Origin: Candidatus Aminicenantota bacterium
GTDB lineage: Bacteria; Acidobacteriota; Aminicenantia; Aminicenantales; Saccharicenantaceae
DNA: 33,623 nucleotides
NCBI GenBank assembly: GCA_002877915.1
Contig: PNJE01000063.1
Span: 1-33,623 of the forward strand
Reading direction: 5' to 3'
Within the stretch, counting starts at the first letter, position 1. Every line of letters begins with the position of its first letter. The notes under the pieces were generated by a model, which searched no databases, had not been told where the DNA came from, and saw only the letters and a program-made list of their open reading frames with translations. A program made the translations under genes and the position numbers. Below, piece by piece: positions 7,606-17,620 of the stretch.

Positions 7606-8775
7606 ATGAAATTGGCACCTGGCCGTTTTAGAAAAATTATTATAGTGGTCATCTTTTTTGTCTGGTTCATTTTGTCAGGCCAGAGTTTTTATCAGAGCCG
7701 TCATCTTAAAGAACCGTTAGTTGTCGGGGAAGAGCTATTCCAAGTAAAAAGATTGAGCGATTATTTTCCTGGAATAAATGGTAGCTTCAATGATGCTAAA
7801 ATTTATATCCTGGGCCAGAATAAAAATGGAGGCTCGATTTTGATTTTAGGGGGTGCCCATCCAGAAGAACCGGCTGGGCGACTGGCTGCCTGGCTTATCA
7901 TTGAAAATGTTAGAGTGAAGAAAGGCCGCGTTTTGGTTATACCTACGGCCAATCCAAGCGCTTCCACTTCTACCCGGCCGGGTGGAGCTTACCCGCCAGA
8001 TTATTCGATTAAAACTCCTTGGGGGGAACAAAAGTTCCGCCAGGGGGACCGCTGGTCCAATCCACTGGACCAATGGCCGGATCCGGAAGTTTATATTCAT
8101 TATCCCTCCAGACAGCAGCTGGCTTATATGGATATCAGAAATCAGAACCGAACCTGGCCCGGGCGACCGAACGGAACTATGACTGAAAAAACCTGTTATG
8201 CTATGACCCAGCTTATTCTTAAAGAAAAAATTGACCTGGTAATCGATTTGCACGAAGCTGAGCTTCAATATCCGGTTATCAGCACTATCGTAGTTCACCC
8301 GAAAGGCCAGGATATCGCTGCCCTCGCTTCGATGATGATCAGCAGCGAGGAAGGTTTCAACATTGGGGTGGAGTTTTCTCCCGAAGCCCTCAGAGGACTC
8401 TCGCACAGAGAAATAGGTGATCATACCCCGGCCATTCCTTTCCTTATGGAAACGCCCGAACCATTTCTGGATGCTACCCGAGGGAAAACCGACCAGGAAC
8501 TTCTTTTGACCGGGAAAGATGAATTCGTAATGAAAGCTGGAAAACATGGACTTCTTTTTGAAAAGCTGGATAAAAATGGCTGGCCAATTGACGTGCGAGT
8601 CGGACGGCATCTCTCCTCCATCATTCAAATTATAAAAGTCTGGACTGAATCAAACGCCGACCGCCCGATTCTGATAGAAAATGTTCCTCATTACCAGGAT
8701 CTGATCAAGAATGGAATAGGATTTTATCTGAAAGACCCTTCTAAGGCAGAATCCGGCCGTGTTTTTTATGAATAA
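7606..8775 (+). CDS. M14-family zinc carboxypeptidase / succinylglutamate desuccinylase-aspartoacylase-like protein, membrane anchored
   Basis: N-terminal TM; LILGGAHPEEPAGRLAAW (HxxE zinc motif), VIPTANPSA, DLVIDLHEAELQYP. Confidence 0.8.
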   Translation: MKLAPGRFRKIIIVVIFFVWFILSGQSFYQSRHLKEPLVVGEELFQVKRLSDYFPGINGSFNDAKIYILGQNKNGGSILILGGAHPEEPAGRLAAWLIIENVRVKKGRVLVIPTANPSASTSTRPGGAYPPDYSIKTPWGEQKFRQGDRWSNPLDQWPDPEVYIHYPSRQQLAYMDIRNQNRTWPGRPNGTMTEKTCYAMTQLILKEKIDLVIDLHEAELQYPVISTIVVHPKGQDIAALASMMISSEEGFNIGVEFSPEALRGLSHREIGDHTPAIPFLMETPEPFLDATRGKTDQELLLTGKDEFVMKAGKHGLLFEKLDKNGWPIDVRVGRHLSSIIQIIKVWTESNADRPILIENVPHYQDLIKNGIGFYLKDPSKAESGRVFYE

Positions 8776-9850
8776 AAGCCGGAAAGACCAAAGCCGATAA
8801 GAAAAGAACAAAAAGATAAGAAAAGACAAAAAGATATAGAGATGATTTTTTAGATCTCTCCTCAGGCCAATTAATCCCCTGGCCAGGTTGAGGCAAAGGC
8901 TGAGGATCCCAGGGCAGATTATAACGTTGAACTAAACTCCGAATATTAAGCAGGTGAATTACCGGAATGCCCTTAGCCGACATTTCCTGGATTAGGCCGC
9001 GCTTTTCAGGTGGCGGTAATTTTTTTACATTGGCAAGTCCAGGCGGTAATTCCAGAATGGATGAATCTCTACCCAAATTTACTAAGCTGCCACCCGCATT
9101 GATAAATGCCTTTATCCCACCCGGTGAATTTATTTCATAAAGATACAGATGTTTCTGAACCTTTTCTTGGAATTTTTCACCTTCCAGAAATTTAATTCCT
9201 AAATGGGCGGCTTTTTCTCTGAGTTTCAATTTCAAATCTTCGGGAAATTCTCTTCCCGAATCATCTTCCCCTCCCCAAGAAATCGCCAGAAAGTGGTAAT
9301 GATCAAAGCCAGCTAATCGCCAGCATTCCTCCAGGTCGAGAATAGAAAATTCAGGATTATTAGCCCCCCACTGAGAAGCTCCGACCGAAGCAATAATCGT
9401 AAGGTTAGCCTTGAGAGCCTCAGCCGCACAAATAGAAGCGAGGATTAGAGCCGGGAAAGAACCCGAAGCCCCGAGGGCAAAGTAATCTCCTTCTTTTACT
9501 CCGGCTTTTTCCAGCAGATGAACCAGGAGGGCGGCCATATTGGGATTAGTGGTGGTTCTTTTAGCCTCGAGATTTCCAAGGGTGGTGGTTAGGGGACTAT
9601 GTTCCAGGCCAATTAAACCGGTTTTATTCAGGTCAAAAAAGTTTTTCTCCGGCTGTAATCCCCTTTTTTTTTCGCAGGAAAAGGTTATTTTTTCAGCTTC
9701 CAACATAAGCCGAGCAGCTTTAATTTCAGTTAGCTTTGCCCCATTATTTTTAGGCCGAGGTTGAATCATTCCTAAATAAAGAAAATAAAAAATGAGGCTG
9801 ACGGCAGCTAACAGATAAAGTGTTATAGAGTTTATTTTTGGTTTAGGCAT
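8741..9850 (-). CDS. pgsW: Poly-gamma-glutamate system protein (PgsW-like)
   Basis: N- and C-terminal TM segments; LEHSPLTTTLGNLEAKRTTTNPNMAALLVHLLEKAGVKEGDYFALGASGSFPALILA...ASQWGANNPEF; immediately downstream of pgsC (TGATG overlap). Confidence 0.85.
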   Translation of the reverse strand: MPKPKINSITLYLLAAVSLIFYFLYLGMIQPRPKNNGAKLTEIKAARLMLEAEKITFSCEKKRGLQPEKNFFDLNKTGLIGLEHSPLTTTLGNLEAKRTTTNPNMAALLVHLLEKAGVKEGDYFALGASGSFPALILASICAAEALKANLTIIASVGASQWGANNPEFSILDLEECWRLAGFDHYHFLAISWGGEDDSGREFPEDLKLKLREKAAHLGIKFLEGEKFQEKVQKHLYLYEINSPGGIKAFINAGGSLVNLGRDSSILELPPGLANVKKLPPPEKRGLIQEMSAKGIPVIHLLNIRSLVQRYNLPWDPQPLPQPGQGINWPEERSKKSSLYLFVFSYLFVLFLSALVFPAFIHKKHGRILP

Positions 9851-10284
9851 CAGTATAACAGCCGGCTGATAAAAAAAGTCAAAACAGAAACCACTATCAG
9901 AGAAGCCAAGGTTGGCAGCATTTTTTGTCTTTCTAAATTAGAAGTTAGGATTCCTGGCACTACCCAGCCAATAACCCTTAACCCGATTGGTTCAGAAAAA
10001 AGGTGGGGCAAAATTAGAGCCCAGACCTGGCCCAATAGGGCACCGCCCAGAATCATAAAAACAAACCGCCGGCGGCCAAACAAAATAAAATAGCGAAATA
10101 GCCAGCGATAAATTACCAGCAATAATAGCGCCACCAGGATGGTGGCCACCGGCCTCCAGGGCTGATCAAGATAAAGAGAAAAATAGGCTGGCACAATTAA
10201 CCCGCCAGGAGATACACCTGTTATTTCTACATAAATCAAAGAAAGTACCAGACCAAGAAATAGGCTATTATAATTTAAGGGCAT
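9850..10284 (-). CDS. pgsC: Poly-gamma-glutamate biosynthesis protein PgsC/CapC-like
   Basis: Multi-TM protein with YVEITGVSPGGLIVPAYFSLYLDQP and VIGWVVPGILTSNLERQ, the PgsC/CapC signatures; overlaps pgsB 3' end. Confidence 0.9.
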   Translation of the reverse strand: MPLNYNSLFLGLVLSLIYVEITGVSPGGLIVPAYFSLYLDQPWRPVATILVALLLLVIYRWLFRYFILFGRRRFVFMILGGALLGQVWALILPHLFSEPIGLRVIGWVVPGILTSNLERQKMLPTLASLIVVSVLTFFISRLLY

Positions 10285-11527
10285 GAGCCGTCCTTTCCAG
10301 ATAATCTATTATTTCCTGACCGGGGCCGACAATATTGCCCAGGCCGAAAATAACTACGTGTCCGACCGAAGACCTGGTCAAATTATCGCCAGTTTCCAAA
10401 GCTGAATTCAAGGAAGAGCTGGATAATTCGGACGGGGGAAAGGAAAATGGTTGAGAGGAACCAACAGAAGCCTTAAAAATTTTAAGCTGGGAAATTGCTT
10501 CTTTAAGAATTTTTTCCGGCTTCTTTTCTTTAATTATTCTGACTCGGCTTTCAAGTGAACATCTTTTTCTCCTCAAATACCTGGCTGCCGCCTGGCTGCC
10601 AGGACCAGAGAAAGCCAGAAGTTGCCAATGGCTTTTTATAAAGCTTTCTTTTTCCCCAGATTCTAGAAGATAATCGAGCCATTGCCGAGTTCGATCTCCT
10701 CGGTCTGGACGAAGAATCAAGACCGCCGCCATCGGCCGGCTTTCCCAGCCCATTTTCTTAATAATCATTTTCATGGCTTCCTCGGTTGACTTGGGATCAT
10801 TAGCGGCAAAGAGGCTGACAAAATTAAAGGTTAGGCCTTCACCCTCAAATGTTTTCTCCCAGGCTCGGAGACAGCCATAATCCGGATGGACCTGAATTAA
10901 TCCTTCCCGAATTTCTTCTTCTTTCAAACCAAACTCTTTTAAAACGGCTATCGCCAATCGGACATTAACCTCAAATTCCGGGTAAGGTAGCGAACGAACC
11001 AGGTCAGTTGAAAATGAATTTTTATCGATTTTAAAGAGTGAGGAACAAGCCTTTCGGGCCAAATTTTCAACCGGCTCAATAGCTTCCTCACCTGGAGTAA
11101 AAATTTTCAATGACTTTAAAAAAGCTGAAGAGAGAGAGACGGCAATTTGTTCTTCAGTTTGACCCAGTTCTTCAAGGTGATCAGGTCTGATATTGCTTAA
11201 AACCAAAATCTCCGGTTTAATCAGATGGCTACTTTCTACCCGCAAACACTCTGGTCGAATGCTCATCATTTCGGTTACCAGAAAATCGACCTTTTCTCTA
11301 ACTGCCTTTCTGATGAGTCTCTTCTGCTCGAGAATAGTCGGCTGCCCTCTTCTCTTTATTTGCTCTTCTTGACCATCAGGATAGATTAAAACGGGCTTGG
11401 AACCGGTAGTCTTGGCCATAACTCTATAACCTGCCCCCCTTAACCCGGCAGCAATCAGTCTGGTGATGCTGGATTTTCCCCTGATGCCGGTGATAGCCAG
11501 GCGATGAGGGATTTTACCCAGGGCCAT
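10268..11527 (-). CDS. pgsB: Poly-gamma-glutamate synthase PgsB/CapB-like (Mur-ligase-like ATPase)
   Basis: ITGIRGKSSITRLIAAGLRGAGYRVMAKTTGSKPVLIYPDG...LVTEMMSIRPECLRVE...VLSNIRPDHLEELG; P-loop and CapB motifs. Confidence 0.9.
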   Translation of the reverse strand: MALGKIPHRLAITGIRGKSSITRLIAAGLRGAGYRVMAKTTGSKPVLIYPDGQEEQIKRRGQPTILEQKRLIRKAVREKVDFLVTEMMSIRPECLRVESSHLIKPEILVLSNIRPDHLEELGQTEEQIAVSLSSAFLKSLKIFTPGEEAIEPVENLARKACSSLFKIDKNSFSTDLVRSLPYPEFEVNVRLAIAVLKEFGLKEEEIREGLIQVHPDYGCLRAWEKTFEGEGLTFNFVSLFAANDPKSTEEAMKMIIKKMGWESRPMAAVLILRPDRGDRTRQWLDYLLESGEKESFIKSHWQLLAFSGPGSQAAARYLRRKRCSLESRVRIIKEKKPEKILKEAISQLKIFKASVGSSQPFSFPPSELSSSSLNSALETGDNLTRSSVGHVVIFGLGNIVGPGQEIIDYLERTAHALKL

Positions 11528-12198: not shown

Positions 12199-12236
12199 AA
12201 AAAAAGAAATAGAGGGGTGCCGCCGTGCACCCCTCT
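12199..12236 (-). terminator. Rho-independent terminator
   Basis: Perfect 10-bp stem AGAGGGGTGC (12211-12220) / GCACCCCTCT (12227-12236), 6-nt loop, followed on the minus strand by ATTTCTTTTTTT. Confidence 0.85.
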
Positions 12237-12239
12237 GAT

Positions 12240-12473
12240 TTAATTGAAGGAAGGGGGAATGGAAAGAAGGGCAAAGAAGGGCAAAAAGGAGGCAATTATA
12301 AAATTTTTGGTGCGCTCATCGTCTTTAAGGGAAAATAAAAGTGAGGGAGAAATTGGATTCTTTGGCTCATGTATCTTCGACTTCTCCCTCCCTAATCCAG
12401 CAAAATAATCTATATATATTGGCTTTCTATCATTAGCCTTTATATCCATTTTCTTCATCAACATTTTTCGCAC
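12240..12473 (-). CDS. Small ORF (or RNA) in a short RpoN-type transcription unit
   Basis: 77-aa ORF (GTG at 12473, or internal ATG at 12464) bounded by a perfect -24/-12 promoter upstream and a strong terminator downstream; protein not recognised. Confidence 0.45.
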   Translation of the reverse strand: MRKMLMKKMDIKANDRKPIYIDYFAGLGREKSKIHEPKNPISPSLLFSLKDDERTKNFIIASFLPFFALLSIPPSFN

Positions 12474-12487
12474 CCGCCTTTATAAGT

Positions 12488-12503
12488 AGCAAATTTCGTG
12501 CCA
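12488..12503 (-). promoter_or_regulatory. Sigma-54 (RpoN) promoter, perfect -24/-12
   Basis: Minus strand TGGCACG-AAAT-TTGCT, exact match to TGGCACG-N4-TTGCW with correct GG-N10-GC spacing. Confidence 0.85.
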
Positions 12504-12649
12504 ATTTTTATAAGAGAAAACTTGAAAAATTATAAAAAAAGTCATAAAAAAAATTACATCGAGCGTAAAGATATTTTACGAACCCGCAATTTTAATAACT
12601 TGAGAATTAATTAAAACTCCGGGAAGTTCAGCTTTTTCGGTTCATAGAA

Positions 12650-13012
12650 TCAAGCTTTTAAAAGCTCGTCTATGGTGTCAGTAAAGGCTTTAAGATCAAG
12701 AGGCTTGATAAAGAGATGGCTTACTCCCACTTGTTGAAGTTCATCAGATTTTAGCTGTTCGGGAAAGGCGGAGATTAGAATAACCTTTCCCTGGTAACCA
12801 GCTCGCCTGAATTCCTGAACCATCTGTAGGCCATTTTTATGTGGTAGCCGGAAATCGGCAATAATTAGATCGACCGGTGCACTTTGAAATCTGGCCAGAG
12901 CTTCCTGGGCATCCCTGGCTAAATAAACATTATATTTAGAAGTCAAAAGAAGAAAAAAAGTTTTTCTTATTGATTCATCGTCATCGACAATCACAATTTT
13001 TTTTTCCAGCAT
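12650..13012 (-). CDS. Stand-alone receiver-domain response regulator
   Basis: KIVIVDDDESIRKTF...DLIIADFRLPHKNGLQMV...VILISAFPE...FIKPLDLKAF; no output domain. Confidence 0.93.
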   Translation of the reverse strand: MLEKKIVIVDDDESIRKTFFLLLTSKYNVYLARDAQEALARFQSAPVDLIIADFRLPHKNGLQMVQEFRRAGYQGKVILISAFPEQLKSDELQQVGVSHLFIKPLDLKAFTDTIDELLKA

Positions 13013-13161: not shown

Positions 13162-14532
13162 TTAGTCAGATTCGGAATTTTCTACTTTGAGGTTATAATC
13201 CTTTATTTTCTTATCAAGCGTTGGGCGGCTGATATCAAGGATCTGGCAGGCTTTGGTTTTGCTGCCCTTAGTCACTTCCAGCACCTGCTGAATATACCTT
13301 TTCTCCACTTCCCATAGGGGAACAAGCTCTCCGGGAGAAAAAATATTTTTCTCTTCTGGAGGTTTAGTCGCAGGCTCAAAGGGCAAATTTTCCTTCAATA
13401 CTATGTCGCCCTTGGCCAGGATTACTGCCCGGGTGAGAGCATTTTCCAATTCTCTAACATTTCCTTTCCAGGGCTGATTCATTAAATATTCCATAACTTC
13501 GGGCGGTACCTTGCGCACATTCTTCTTGAGTTCACGGTTAATCTTTTCCAGAAGATAAGCCACCAATTCTGGGATATCCTCACGCCTTTCCCTTAGAGGA
13601 GGCAAAGTGATCTCTACCACCTTTAAACGATAATAAAGGTCCTCTCTGAATTTTCCCTGCCTGACTAATTCTTTCAAATTCTGATTGGTAGCTGCTATGA
13701 TGCGGGCTTCTGTTTTCAATATCCTTTCTCCCCCGACCTTCATGAAGTCCCGAGTTTCGATAACCCTCAGGAGCTTCGATTGAAGATTGGGAGAGATGTC
13801 TCCGATTTCATCGAGAAAAAGGGTGCCCTTGCCAGCTATCTCAAATTTTCCCCGGGTCTCGGCCACAGCATCAGTAAAAGCCCCCTTAACATGACCAAAG
13901 AGCTCCGATTCTAACAGGGTGTCGGAAATAGCCGAGCAATTAATAACGATAAAGGGTTCATCCTTGAATGGACTATTATAATGAATGGCTTTAGCCACTA
14001 GCTCTTTTCCGGTGCCACTTTCCCCCTGGATCAAAACATTGGTCCTGGTGTTGGCCACCGAGCCAATCAACTTGAAGACCTCTCGCATCTGGGGAGACCG
14101 ACCAATTATATTATCTATTTGATATTCCTTCTGCTTTTCCTCAACCAGATAGCTAACTTTTTCCTCCAAGGACCTCATCTGAAAGGCTTTATCAATGGTT
14201 AGGTCGAGTTCCAGGTAATCCAGGGGCTTAACTAAATATTCAAAAGCACCGGCTTTTATTGCTTCTACTGTTGTTCTCATATCATCAAAAGCGGTCATAA
14301 TCACCACGGAAGTGTTCTTGTTTTCATTCTTGATCTGCTTTAAAACATCCAGTCCATTTATATCCGGCAGCTTGACATCAAGTAGAACCAGCTCTGGCTG
14401 AAAATGGTGAAAAATTTCCAATCCCTCTTCACCACTTTCGGCTATCTTAACTTCAAATCCCCTCTTTTTAAGATGAGACCCCAAGGTACGGCTGACCAAA
14501 GGGTCATCTTCCACCACTAAAATCATTGTCAT
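13162..14532 (-). CDS. NtrC-family sigma-54-dependent response regulator (REC-AAA+-Fis HTH)
   Basis: REC domain; GESGTGKE Walker A; ELFGHVKGAFTDA; GTLFLDEIGD Walker B; C-terminal SKTKACQILDISRPTLDKKIKDY HTH. Confidence 0.96.
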   Translation of the reverse strand: MTMILVVEDDPLVSRTLGSHLKKRGFEVKIAESGEEGLEIFHHFQPELVLLDVKLPDINGLDVLKQIKNENKNTSVVIMTAFDDMRTTVEAIKAGAFEYLVKPLDYLELDLTIDKAFQMRSLEEKVSYLVEEKQKEYQIDNIIGRSPQMREVFKLIGSVANTRTNVLIQGESGTGKELVAKAIHYNSPFKDEPFIVINCSAISDTLLESELFGHVKGAFTDAVAETRGKFEIAGKGTLFLDEIGDISPNLQSKLLRVIETRDFMKVGGERILKTEARIIAATNQNLKELVRQGKFREDLYYRLKVVEITLPPLRERREDIPELVAYLLEKINRELKKNVRKVPPEVMEYLMNQPWKGNVRELENALTRAVILAKGDIVLKENLPFEPATKPPEEKNIFSPGELVPLWEVEKRYIQQVLEVTKGSKTKACQILDISRPTLDKKIKDYNLKVENSESD

Positions 14533-16013
14533 GATAATTTCTCCTTAGCCGGGGATTGGTAGGGAAGAGTAATTAGGAAGCAGCTGCCTGGTCCCTCTTT
14601 CTCCACTACTTTAATTGAGCCTCCATGTTGCTCTAAAATCCGGCGGGCATTGGCCAGCCCCAGTCCAGCCCCGGAGCTTTTCGTGGTAAAAAAGGGATCA
14701 AATATATTCTCCCAATCTTTTGGTGGGATACCACAGCCATTATCGCTGATTCGAATCTCTAACTGCGGCTCAGGCCGCCCCCTATTAAGCTCCAAGGAAA
14801 TTTCAATCTCCCCACCTTCTTCTACTGCCTCCAGGGCATTCCGTAGAACATTTAAAAAAACCTGCCTCAATTTATCTCCATCCACGTAGACCAAGGGCAG
14901 GTCCTTTCCCAAGTTTTTCTTCAAAACCACTTTTTTTTCATTAAGAGCCGGCTGGAGAATTTTGAGCGACTCTTCCAGAATTTCTTCCATCGAAAAATAA
15001 TCAAGATTAAGAACCGTCGCCCGGGTAAAGGTGAGTAGTTCTTTAATAAACTTTTCGATCTGCTCGATTCCTTCCTGAGCAATGGCCAGGTGCTCTCTTT
15101 CCACTTTATCCAGCTGCTCATTTTCAGCCAGTTTCTGAATATTTAATTTAACCGAGGTCAAGGGATTACGGATTTCATGGGCAATAGTGGCTGACAGCCG
15201 GCCGATGGAAGCCAGTTTTTCAGCCTGCACTAAGCGCCGATTTGTTTCTTCCATTTTCTGCCTGGCAACGTATAACTGCTCAGCCATTTCATTAAAACTA
15301 CGGGTAAGCTCGCCTACTTCATCTGAGGAAATCACCGGTATTCGGTAGGAAAAATCGCCCCTGGAAATTTGCTTAGTCCCCTCCACTAAATTAAGGATCG
15401 GCCTGGTAATTCTCCGGGCTAAAATATTCGCCCCGAATACTGTCAGAACGAGGATTATAAGGCCAAAACCCATCAGAACCAACCGGGTCTGGTAGATCCT
15501 CTGAAAAACATCATCCAGCTTGAGGCCGATTTTAACCGAGCCCCATTTAGTATCCGAGCCGGGGACAAAAACGGGGATTTCAATTTCCATCACTTCATGA
15601 ATCAGGCCGTTAATCTCCAGTTTAAAATTATGGTAAAAAATTGCTTCGGGGGAAACACTCCCAGCGCAATTTGTTCGGTTAATCACTTCGGAATTGCCGG
15701 CGATATTTTCGCTGATTACCACCGGTCGTCCATCCCGATCATAAAAAATTACGTAAGCCAAGTCATCCCGGACGAGACCCGAAATATTCTCATCAATTGA
15801 TTCTAAATCCCAAAGAGCCAGCCGCCGGGCATTCATTTCGGCAATGTACCTGATCATCACCAGGCCCCGATTTCGCTTCTCCTGATAAATGGCCTGGACT
15901 TCCCTTCTCTGAATCAAAAACAAAACTCCGGACATTAGCAAAATAAGTATGACCGATGTCCAGAACACTAATTGAGCATAAATTGAAACCCGAAATTTTC
16001 TTCTTGGGCTCAT
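14529..16013 (-). CDS. Sensor histidine kinase (periplasmic sensor, HAMP, HisKA, HATPase)
   Basis: Two TMs flanking a sensor region; HAMP ARRITRPILNLVEGTKQISRGDFSYRIP; ATIAHEIRNPLTSVKLNIQKL; DNGCGIPPKDWENIFDPFFTTKSSGAGLGLANARRIL. 4-nt overlaps with both neighbours. Confidence 0.96.
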   Translation of the reverse strand: MSPRRKFRVSIYAQLVFWTSVILILLMSGVLFLIQRREVQAIYQEKRNRGLVMIRYIAEMNARRLALWDLESIDENISGLVRDDLAYVIFYDRDGRPVVISENIAGNSEVINRTNCAGSVSPEAIFYHNFKLEINGLIHEVMEIEIPVFVPGSDTKWGSVKIGLKLDDVFQRIYQTRLVLMGFGLIILVLTVFGANILARRITRPILNLVEGTKQISRGDFSYRIPVISSDEVGELTRSFNEMAEQLYVARQKMEETNRRLVQAEKLASIGRLSATIAHEIRNPLTSVKLNIQKLAENEQLDKVEREHLAIAQEGIEQIEKFIKELLTFTRATVLNLDYFSMEEILEESLKILQPALNEKKVVLKKNLGKDLPLVYVDGDKLRQVFLNVLRNALEAVEEGGEIEISLELNRGRPEPQLEIRISDNGCGIPPKDWENIFDPFFTTKSSGAGLGLANARRILEQHGGSIKVVEKEGPGSCFLITLPYQSPAKEKLS

Positions 16014-17620
16014 CGGTCTATCCAGGCATCTCTCAAGTTAAGATAAAAAAAGCCCAGAGGCTGGGCTTTTAAGTTCTTAATATATGGTTGATAGGCCATC
16101 CTCTGGTTAAAGTAATAAAGAGGAATGGCCGGCAAGTCAGCTTTAAGAAGAGTCTCTATCTGCCGGAAAATACTTAGCCGACGGTCAAAACCTGACAAGT
16201 TGCTTTGGGTCTCAAGCAACTCATCTACCTGCTGGTTCTGATAATGGAAATAAAGGCTGTTAAAATAAGATCGCGAGTAAAAAAGTGGCGAAATTAAAAA
16301 CTCGGGGTCTGGCAAATTTACCAGCCAGTCAAAATAAACGAGATAAGGAGTCTGTTCATTTTTAATTTCGCTCAAGGATTTAATTGGCCTTAACTCCAGG
16401 TTGATGCTAGCCGGTCGGAGATCCTCTCTTAATTCCTGATAAATATTCTGAACAAGCTCTTTCAGGGGAAATTCAAAATACAAATAAACGGTCAGCGGCT
16501 TAGCTGGATTGCCCAGTCCGGCTTCAGACAAGGTATTATAAATCCGACTTAAATCTGCCTCTTCCTCTCGCTGAATTGGTAAGAAACCGGGCAAAAATGG
16601 AGGTATAAAATTATTAAGCACCTGAGCAAAATAGGCTGGAGAAGAAACTAACCCCGCCAGCCGGCTTTTGTCGATAAATCCAGCCAAGGCTTTTCTGATT
16701 TCCGGACGGTCAAAGGGTGGCTGGTGACAGTTGAAAAAAAGATAGGCTAAATGATTGGAACTATTTTCGATAACCTGATATTTATTTTTAGAAATCCTAT
16801 AAGACAGGTAAGGAACAACTTGGACCTCGTCTCTGAAAAAGTCATCTAAAAGAAAATAAGGGCTGATTTCAATCGTCTGGAGATAAGGTTTCCGCCCGAA
16901 ATATTTTTCATTTCTGGCCAGGCTGATGCCGATAATATCCAAACGAGAGTTTCTAAGCCAGAAATCGAATTTAAACGGGCCCGCTCCGATCGGCTTTTCA
17001 AAAAATCTTCTCTTTTCCTTAAGTATCAGGTTGCGGGGAAGAATTTTGGCAAAGCTGGCGGCTAAAAAATAAAAATTATTTATATTAGGAGATTTCCAAT
17101 CAATTTCCAGGGTCTGGCTGTCAAGTACCTTTAACCCGAGGACTTCTGAAGCCGCTCCTTGCCAAAATTCCTCTCCCCCTTCTATTCTCGAAGCAAACAA
17201 ATAAAAAAGAGGATTTCCTTTGAGCTGGAAGAGCCTCTCATATGAAAATTTTACATCTTCGGCCGTCACTGGTTGGCCATTATGGAAAACAGCTCCTTTC
17301 CTCAAATAAAAGATTACTTTTTGTCCGCCTTCTGAAATTGTCCAGTAGTCAGCCAGGCCAGGGAAAAGGCTCAAATTGCGGTCAAGCCTTAATAAACCTT
17401 CATATAGGTTTTCAATAACTTCCGGGTAACCATTCCCAGCCGGATCCAGGTCCATATTGAGAGTGCGCCCATAAGCCTTGATTCTTAAAATGCCTCCGGG
17501 CCGGGGCTGGTCAAAGCTGAAGGAAGGAGCTGGCAGATTAATACCTGGATAAACAAAAAATAAAAGCAGAAGGATTCCCAGATAATATAGAGGCCAACGG
17601 GAAGAAGGACTTCGACTCAT
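16010..17620 (-). CDS. ABC-type oligopeptide-binding protein (SBP_bac_5), N-terminally membrane anchored
   Basis: Hydrophobic N-terminus without lipobox; ENLYEGLLRLDRNLSLFPGLADYWTISEGGQKVIFYLRKGAVFHNGQPVTAEDVKFSYERLF. Confidence 0.93.
   Translation of the reverse strand: MSRSPSSRWPLYYLGILLLLFFVYPGINLPAPSFSFDQPRPGGILRIKAYGRTLNMDLDPAGNGYPEVIENLYEGLLRLDRNLSLFPGLADYWTISEGGQKVIFYLRKGAVFHNGQPVTAEDVKFSYERLFQLKGNPLFYLFASRIEGGEEFWQGAASEVLGLKVLDSQTLEIDWKSPNINNFYFLAASFAKILPRNLILKEKRRFFEKPIGAGPFKFDFWLRNSRLDIIGISLARNEKYFGRKPYLQTIEISPYFLLDDFFRDEVQVVPYLSYRISKNKYQVIENSSNHLAYLFFNCHQPPFDRPEIRKALAGFIDKSRLAGLVSSPAYFAQVLNNFIPPFLPGFLPIQREEEADLSRIYNTLSEAGLGNPAKPLTVYLYFEFPLKELVQNIYQELREDLRPASINLELRPIKSLSEIKNEQTPYLVYFDWLVNLPDPEFLISPLFYSRSYFNSLYFHYQNQQVDELLETQSNLSGFDRRLSIFRQIETLLKADLPAIPLYYFNQRMAYQPYIKNLKAQPLGFFYLNLRDAWIDR
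16045..16070 (-). terminator. Terminator-like hairpin inside the SBP gene 3' end
   Basis: Perfect 10-bp stem AAAAGCCCAG/CTGGGCTTTT with 3-nt loop; minus-strand hairpin is followed by a T7 run (CTGGGCTTTTTTTATC). Confidence 0.65.

Follow-up and report, generated by a model that had tools for sequence, protein, structure and literature searches.

A probable sigma-54-controlled RNA unit of Candidatus Saccharicenans that would join a maintained reading frame to a base-pairing tract

A short minus-strand unit in a genome of Ca. Saccharicenans (Aminicenantia) probably specifies a sigma-54/NtrC-controlled RNA that is both coding and base-pairing and is new to the databases. It lies in a window of 33,623 nucleotides, the whole stretch of DNA analysed here, and comprises, in order, a UAS palindrome, a -24/-12 promoter, a short open reading frame (sORF), a C-rich tract and a terminator, with a predicted transcript of ~277 nt. 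The sequence-only reading of this locus had offered a microprotein or an sRNA as alternatives; the comparison of relatives indicates that it is probably both, the frame being maintained and its last 19 codons constrained at the RNA level. The upstream palindrome, an internal hairpin and the selective maintenance of the frame were not part of that reading. If the interpretation is true, no regulatory RNA has been described before in Aminicenantia, a lineage that is widespread and uncultured, to judge from the literature searched; a probable activator, its binding site and a small regulon would be known along with the RNA. It would also offer a natural case of a frame under strong selection whose peptide can drift almost freely and whose RNA seeds lie within the frame or immediately after it. 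A few point changes would then suffice to test directly if an sRNA can be controlled by the act of translation. The features of the unit are as follows.

12579-12199, minus strand: whole unit (UAS, promoter, RNA gene, terminator), from sequence and conservation
12565..12579, minus strand: UAS palindrome GTAAA-N5-TTTAC (GTAAAATATCTTTAC), probable NtrC-type activator site
12489..12503, minus strand: -24/-12 sigma-54 promoter TGGCACGAAATTTGC, exact match
12240..12473, minus strand: sORF of 77 codons (GTG 12473) or 74 codons (ATG 12464), ending in IIASFLPFFALLSIPPSFN and the stop
12341..12392, minus strand: 5' hairpin GGGAGGGAGA ... TCTCCCTCAC, 10-bp stem and inner 3 bp, from the consensus fold
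12289..12317, minus strand: small hairpin GAG-C-GCA / TGCCTC, from the consensus fold
12242..12293, minus strand: 52-nt pyrimidine tract GCCTCCTTTTTGCCCTTCTTTGCCCTTCTTTCCATTCCCCCTTCCTTCAATT with anti-Shine-Dalgarno-like seeds, from its invariance
12199..12236, minus strand: intrinsic terminator, AGAGGGGTGC-ACGGCG-GCACCCCTCT with a perfect 10-bp stem (12236-12211) and a T-rich tail, from sequence

The whole-genome search of the genus found the unit in 17 of the 18 other Saccharicenans species; in the 18th (G016) the contig stops shortly past the receiver gene, short of the expected place of the unit. The core was absent from all other genera of the class in a search of their whole genomes, and when 23 nt of the core were matched exactly against 85,462 species genomes, 17 contigs were found. 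All of these come from metagenome assemblies, whose labels are Ca. Saccharicenans, Ca. Aminicenantes, Acidobacteriota/Acidobacteria or, in one case, just 'uncultured bacterium'. The aligned copies share one order of parts: the palindrome, AT-rich DNA, the promoter, a short leader, a variable stretch of ~150 nt with a stem, GAGCGCACC, the pyrimidine tract and the terminator. The Rfam search of the unit returned no family at gathering level, and the folding energy of the whole transcript was ordinary (z -0.02). Several candidates were discarded: weak R1 matches in G073 and G099 were bare terminator look-alikes, and a G053 match from the first DNA search was a low-complexity T-rich stretch upstream of a different gene. 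An antisense gene on a strong plus-strand Shine-Dalgarno sequence was likewise rejected, because the copy in the window has no rightly placed ATG and the frame of a relative closes immediately (alignment by eye).

The promoter is an exact match at 12503-12489 of the minus strand, where the sequence-only reading had placed it; the motif with at most one mismatch is expected by chance 0.27 times in the window. TGGCA[C/T] and TTGC are conserved in each of the 16 relatives with a contig long enough to include the promoter, and the palindrome is kept in all 16 same-genus copies having upstream sequence. The features of a sigma-54 unit are in place: GG/GC conserved at fixed spacing, a probable upstream activator site and, in the genome, an AAA+ activator and rpoN (PF04552, E 2e-63). 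At the other end, the perfect 10-bp hairpin that had been noted was found again, its T-rich tail closing in T7, and its stem is nearly invariant in 16 genomes. Promoter, terminator and the 52-nt pyrimidine tract are all kept across the genus, well beyond what chance would give. As judged from sequence, the unit is independent, with its own promoter and terminator and with no conserved cis gene, as is characteristic of trans-acting sRNAs.

The 77-aa ORF starts at GTG 12473 or ATG 12464 as first described, without a clear Shine-Dalgarno sequence, and its stop (TAA, 12242-12240) lies 3 nt ahead of the terminator stem. None of the 17 complete copies, one from the window and 16 from relatives, has a stop in this frame; the other frames carry 1-7. 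The distances from start to core range from 138 to 156 nt, every one a multiple of three, and in G006, where ~115 nt were lost along with the 5' hairpin, the frame is still kept (37 codons). At one and the same site, the stop codon switches among TAA, TAG and TGA. From the open frame, the multiple-of-three lengths and the varying stop codon, it is very probable that selection maintains translation of the RNA. A purely non-coding sRNA, whose open frame would merely follow from its composition and structure, would agree with the tract being invariant at the RNA level, with the paired 5' hairpin and with an sORF that differs from genus to genus. It is nevertheless very unlikely in the face of the stop codons of three kinds, the lengths, and the aligned frame itself, whose 16 rows contain no stop whereas each of 20,000 column shuffles, which preserve the relatedness among the rows, contained at least 14.

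What selection preserves in this frame differs between its two parts. The first ~50 codons show pS 0.42 and pN 0.36 (all pairs), with dN/dS of ~0.8-1 and close pairs mostly at 0.5-1.2, while the last 19 codons show pS 0 and pN 0.005. This contrast indicates that the N-terminal peptide is nearly free to vary and that the constraint on the 3' part acts on the RNA. In view of a single close pair with dN/dS 0.38 there may be some selection on the peptide, and any constraint on the C-terminal peptide is confounded with that on the RNA. An ordinary sigma-54 small-protein gene, in which the conserved C-terminus INASFLPFFALLSIPPSFN would be a functional peptide and the RNA would have no regulatory role, draws on the same frame, stop and indel pattern, which strongly favours selection for translation, and on the near invariance of the C-terminal peptide. 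We consider it unlikely, as it accounts poorly for 19 final codons without a single synonymous substitution, for an N-terminal dN/dS near 1 and for sister genera that keep the C-rich tract and terminator yet encode an unrelated shorter peptide ending in PDTLP. Neither Pfam nor NCBIfam contained a match to the sORF peptide.

At the RNA level, the 52-nt tract is identical in all copies, and its synonymous divergence is 0, whereas the 5' portion of the ORF reaches 0.42. Its invariant core includes CCUCCUU, which bears out the earlier remark on anti-Shine-Dalgarno-like sequence, and CCCUCCUUCUUUU is kept in sister genera. The tract further holds repeated CCCUUCUUU units without predicted long stems. 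The 5' hairpin, seen in the alignment as GGGAGGGAGA/TCTCCCTCCC, has 97.1% of its cells paired and modest covariation (three pairs with changes on both sides), and it is missing in G006 (L033). In the small hairpin five of the six pairs never vary across copies; according to the consensus fold, some of the anti-Shine-Dalgarno motif could be hidden in this hairpin.

A diverged homologous unit lies downstream of the NtrC-type regulator, which is conserved across the family, in the sister genera g4 and g2. It has the palindrome and TGGCAY..TGC, followed by GATACCCTTCC[A/T]TAACCCTCCTTCTTTT and a related terminator, with 20-101 nt between in g4, and the sister-genus model (R2) independently recovers the Saccharicenans loci (E 2e-6 to 2e-4). 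All 12 of the 12 g4 copies, some of them close relatives, have an in-frame start that runs without a stop to PDTLP and the stop codon (one copy has NTLP instead). In each of the other frames 1 of 12 copies has this, and in 5,000 trials with shuffled sequence the mean was 3.9 copies, with no trial reaching all 12. This consistency also argues against a non-coding RNA. The g4 sORF has ~6 to 34 codons, encodes a peptide unrelated to that of Saccharicenans and stops immediately ahead of CCCTCC. Common to Saccharicenans and g4 are therefore the control region, an sORF, the anti-Shine-Dalgarno tract and the terminator; the CCCUUCUUU repeats are not kept in the sister genera, and in the single g2 genome no sORF stop was found ahead of the tract. 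R2 matches elsewhere in G129, G125 and G040 were set aside, having no -24/-12 site in the part read or lacking the NtrC neighbourhood. Separately, a comparably placed locus in G040, from another family (L160:2823-2990), combines a near-UAS and a -24/-12 site with pyrimidine-rich sequence and a hairpin resembling a terminator; no gene is obvious there, and the locus is a possible distant homologue of the RNA.

Taken as a dual coding and base-pairing RNA, the transcript would run from an sORF without a clear Shine-Dalgarno sequence into the invariant C-rich tract and the terminator. CCUCCUU resembles the 3' end of 16S rRNA, and because the core mimics that end, pairing with ribosome-binding sites is its likely mode of action. 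The tract would pair with Shine-Dalgarno/start regions of mRNAs and block their translation, probably, judging from complementarity, including the mRNA of an OPT oligopeptide transporter (PF03169). Among 489 ribosome-binding sites taken from 643 kb of one genome, that of the OPT gene ranked second by z (-3.6). The predicted pairing consists of 11 bp with AGGAGGGCAAA and, near the start codon, 6 bp with GGAGGC, and the segments of the RNA that would pair with this 5'-UTR are GCCUCC and UUUGCCCUUCU. Of the 17 copies read from Saccharicenans, most retain the OPT element AGGAGGGCAAATGGAG, which was not seen in sister genera. The OPT mRNA is a candidate target only: a ribosome-binding site would be conserved in any case, and the mean z over the 489 sites (-0.14) shows no overall pairing enrichment. 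A search across the genus for complementarity to the tract (20 nt, at most three mismatches) found nothing conserved except the gene itself. A peptide transporter as target would fit an operon headed by a peptide-type solute-binding protein.

CrcZ titrates Hfq/Crc, and C-rich repeats could similarly act as a sink for a protein that binds RNA (Hfq-like, cold-shock or S1-type) with no mRNA pairing at all. The repeated units in a tract without long stems would suit such a role, as would the Hfq-like protein found at borderline scores in all 19 genomes. The loss of the repeats in sister genera, the perfect anti-Shine-Dalgarno motif in the tract of two genera and the good fit to one ribosome-binding site make this explanation quite unlikely next to mRNA pairing.

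In the dual-function reading, translation of the sORF would place ribosomes on or beside the C-rich seeds, and the act of translation probably outweighs its product, because the frame is selected to stay open while most of the peptide drifts. A more specific and rather doubtful proposal is that translation gates the regulator, the sORF being retained for this purpose alone. Ribosomes traversing the anti-Shine-Dalgarno tract (Saccharicenans) or halting just before it (the sister genus) would mask the seeds, a drop in sORF translation would free them, and selection would then act on the frame and on ribosome position, not on the peptide.

Qrr, GlmY/GlmZ, NrsZ and CrcZ are sigma-54-dependent sRNAs of Proteobacteria. 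The present unit resembles them in its -24/-12 promoter, its putative NtrC-family activator and its intrinsic terminator; it differs in having the anti-Shine-Dalgarno tract inside a predicted translated ORF, in belonging to a different phylum and in its lack of an Rfam match at gathering level. The Firmicutes sRNAs RoxS/RsaE and FsrA have C-rich regions that pair with ribosome-binding sites (PMC8216469). Here too there is a C-rich region with predicted pairing to ribosome-binding sites, but this RNA is placed under sigma-54 control and an sORF crosses the tract, and its scores are at chance level and short of membership for both RsaE/RoxS (RF01820, 16.1 bits against the 79 needed) and FsrA (RF02273, 13 against 80). 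An sORF and a base-pairing segment on one transcript are the mark of dual-function RNAs such as VcdRP, SgrS/SgrT and SR1 (PMC8672173). The RNA shares this combination, the pairing segment being putative; unlike in those cases, the peptide is unconserved between genera and its N-terminal part nearly neutral, while the frame is kept. Among the described families that could be tested, the sequence belongs to none, and the literature searched contained no paper linking Aminicenantes with small RNAs.

The genes upstream of the unit, among them an apparently nutrient-sensing two-component system, bear on how it would be controlled.

12650..13012, minus strand: single-domain receiver protein (Response_reg, PF00072, E 3.5e-19)
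13052-13038, minus strand: -24/-12 site of the receiver gene, TGGCACGAAAAATGC
13138-13124, minus strand: UAS-like sequence of the receiver gene, GTAAAAAAAATTAAC
13162..14532, minus strand: NtrC-type sigma-54 activator (receiver, Sigma54_activat, Fis-type HTH), from Pfam
14529-16013, minus strand: histidine kinase, from Pfam and ORF coordinates
16010-17620, minus strand: SBP_bac_5 solute-binding protein, from Pfam and ORF coordinates

The histidine kinase and SBP_bac_5 genes overlap and form one operon with the NtrC gene (13162-17620). Orthologues of the activator have at least 74% identity in nearly all genomes of the family and ~76% in other families of the order. The receiver gene, which has its own sigma-54 promoter, is close to the unit in nearly all relatives and in G069 (L202) is preceded by a perfect UAS. 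SBP_bac_5 is apparently the sensor input of the sigma-54 system, and the palindrome is found upstream of the operon in many genera of the order.

On the other side of the unit the neighbours change: most relatives have a convergent opposite-strand NTPase gene next, others have a PgsB-like gene there, the window has an unassigned ORF, and no cis gene downstream is conserved across relatives. This bears on a cis-acting leader, in which the terminator would control a downstream gene. A short ORF with a stop 3 nt before the terminator stem does resemble leader-peptide attenuators, but with no constant same-strand gene to regulate we regard this as highly improbable. Farther downstream on the same strand (window 8741-11527) are a Mur-ligase-like gene (PgsB/CapB-type), CapC and a third gene, poly-gamma-glutamate-type capsule genes; a PgsB-like gene lies downstream of the unit in most relatives too.

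The combination of palindrome and promoter was sought as a pattern of the palindrome with a -24/-12 site 45-75 bp downstream, the reversed pattern serving as control. Most Saccharicenans genomes contain exactly two such pairs and the remainder one, and the control gave none. One is the RNA unit; the other precedes the gene of a secreted protein of ~350 aa, which had no Pfam or NCBIfam family match. This gene is monocistronic and the N-terminus of its product is signal-peptide-like (L184, G000:C124:5268-5348 and downstream; L172, L164); in sister genera and in another family, too, genes for similar proteins follow sites of this type (L195, L218-L220). Over the order, the sites occur in 72 of 95 genomes, again with no control matches. 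Among the loci read they often precede an SBP_bac_5 gene, and several, in other families and genera, lie ~3 kb upstream of an NtrC gene, at the head of the SBP-HK-NtrC operon; others stand in front of the receiver gene, of a TonB-like gene and of genes for ECF-type sigma factors (the last two by eye).

Through the positions of these sites the palindrome can be tied to the neighbouring NtrC-type regulator. Control of the unit by this regulator, as first proposed, is supported by conservation, by conserved linkage and by the shared UAS; we infer that the activator binds the palindrome. From the sites and the linkage, an active SBP-histidine kinase-NtrC system would occupy GTAAA-N5-TTTAC and switch on the -24/-12 promoter. 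ECF-type sigma genes (by eye) directly behind a UAS and a -24/-12 site in other genera (L194, L208) suggest a possible cascade from sigma-54 to ECF factors. At L035 (G000:C51:20442), a perfect TGGCACGCAATTTGC lies less than 200 nt upstream of the gene of a secreted carboxypeptidase-regulatory-like protein (by eye), which also has a strong AAAAGGAGG site and points to sigma-54 control of surface proteins outside this regulon.
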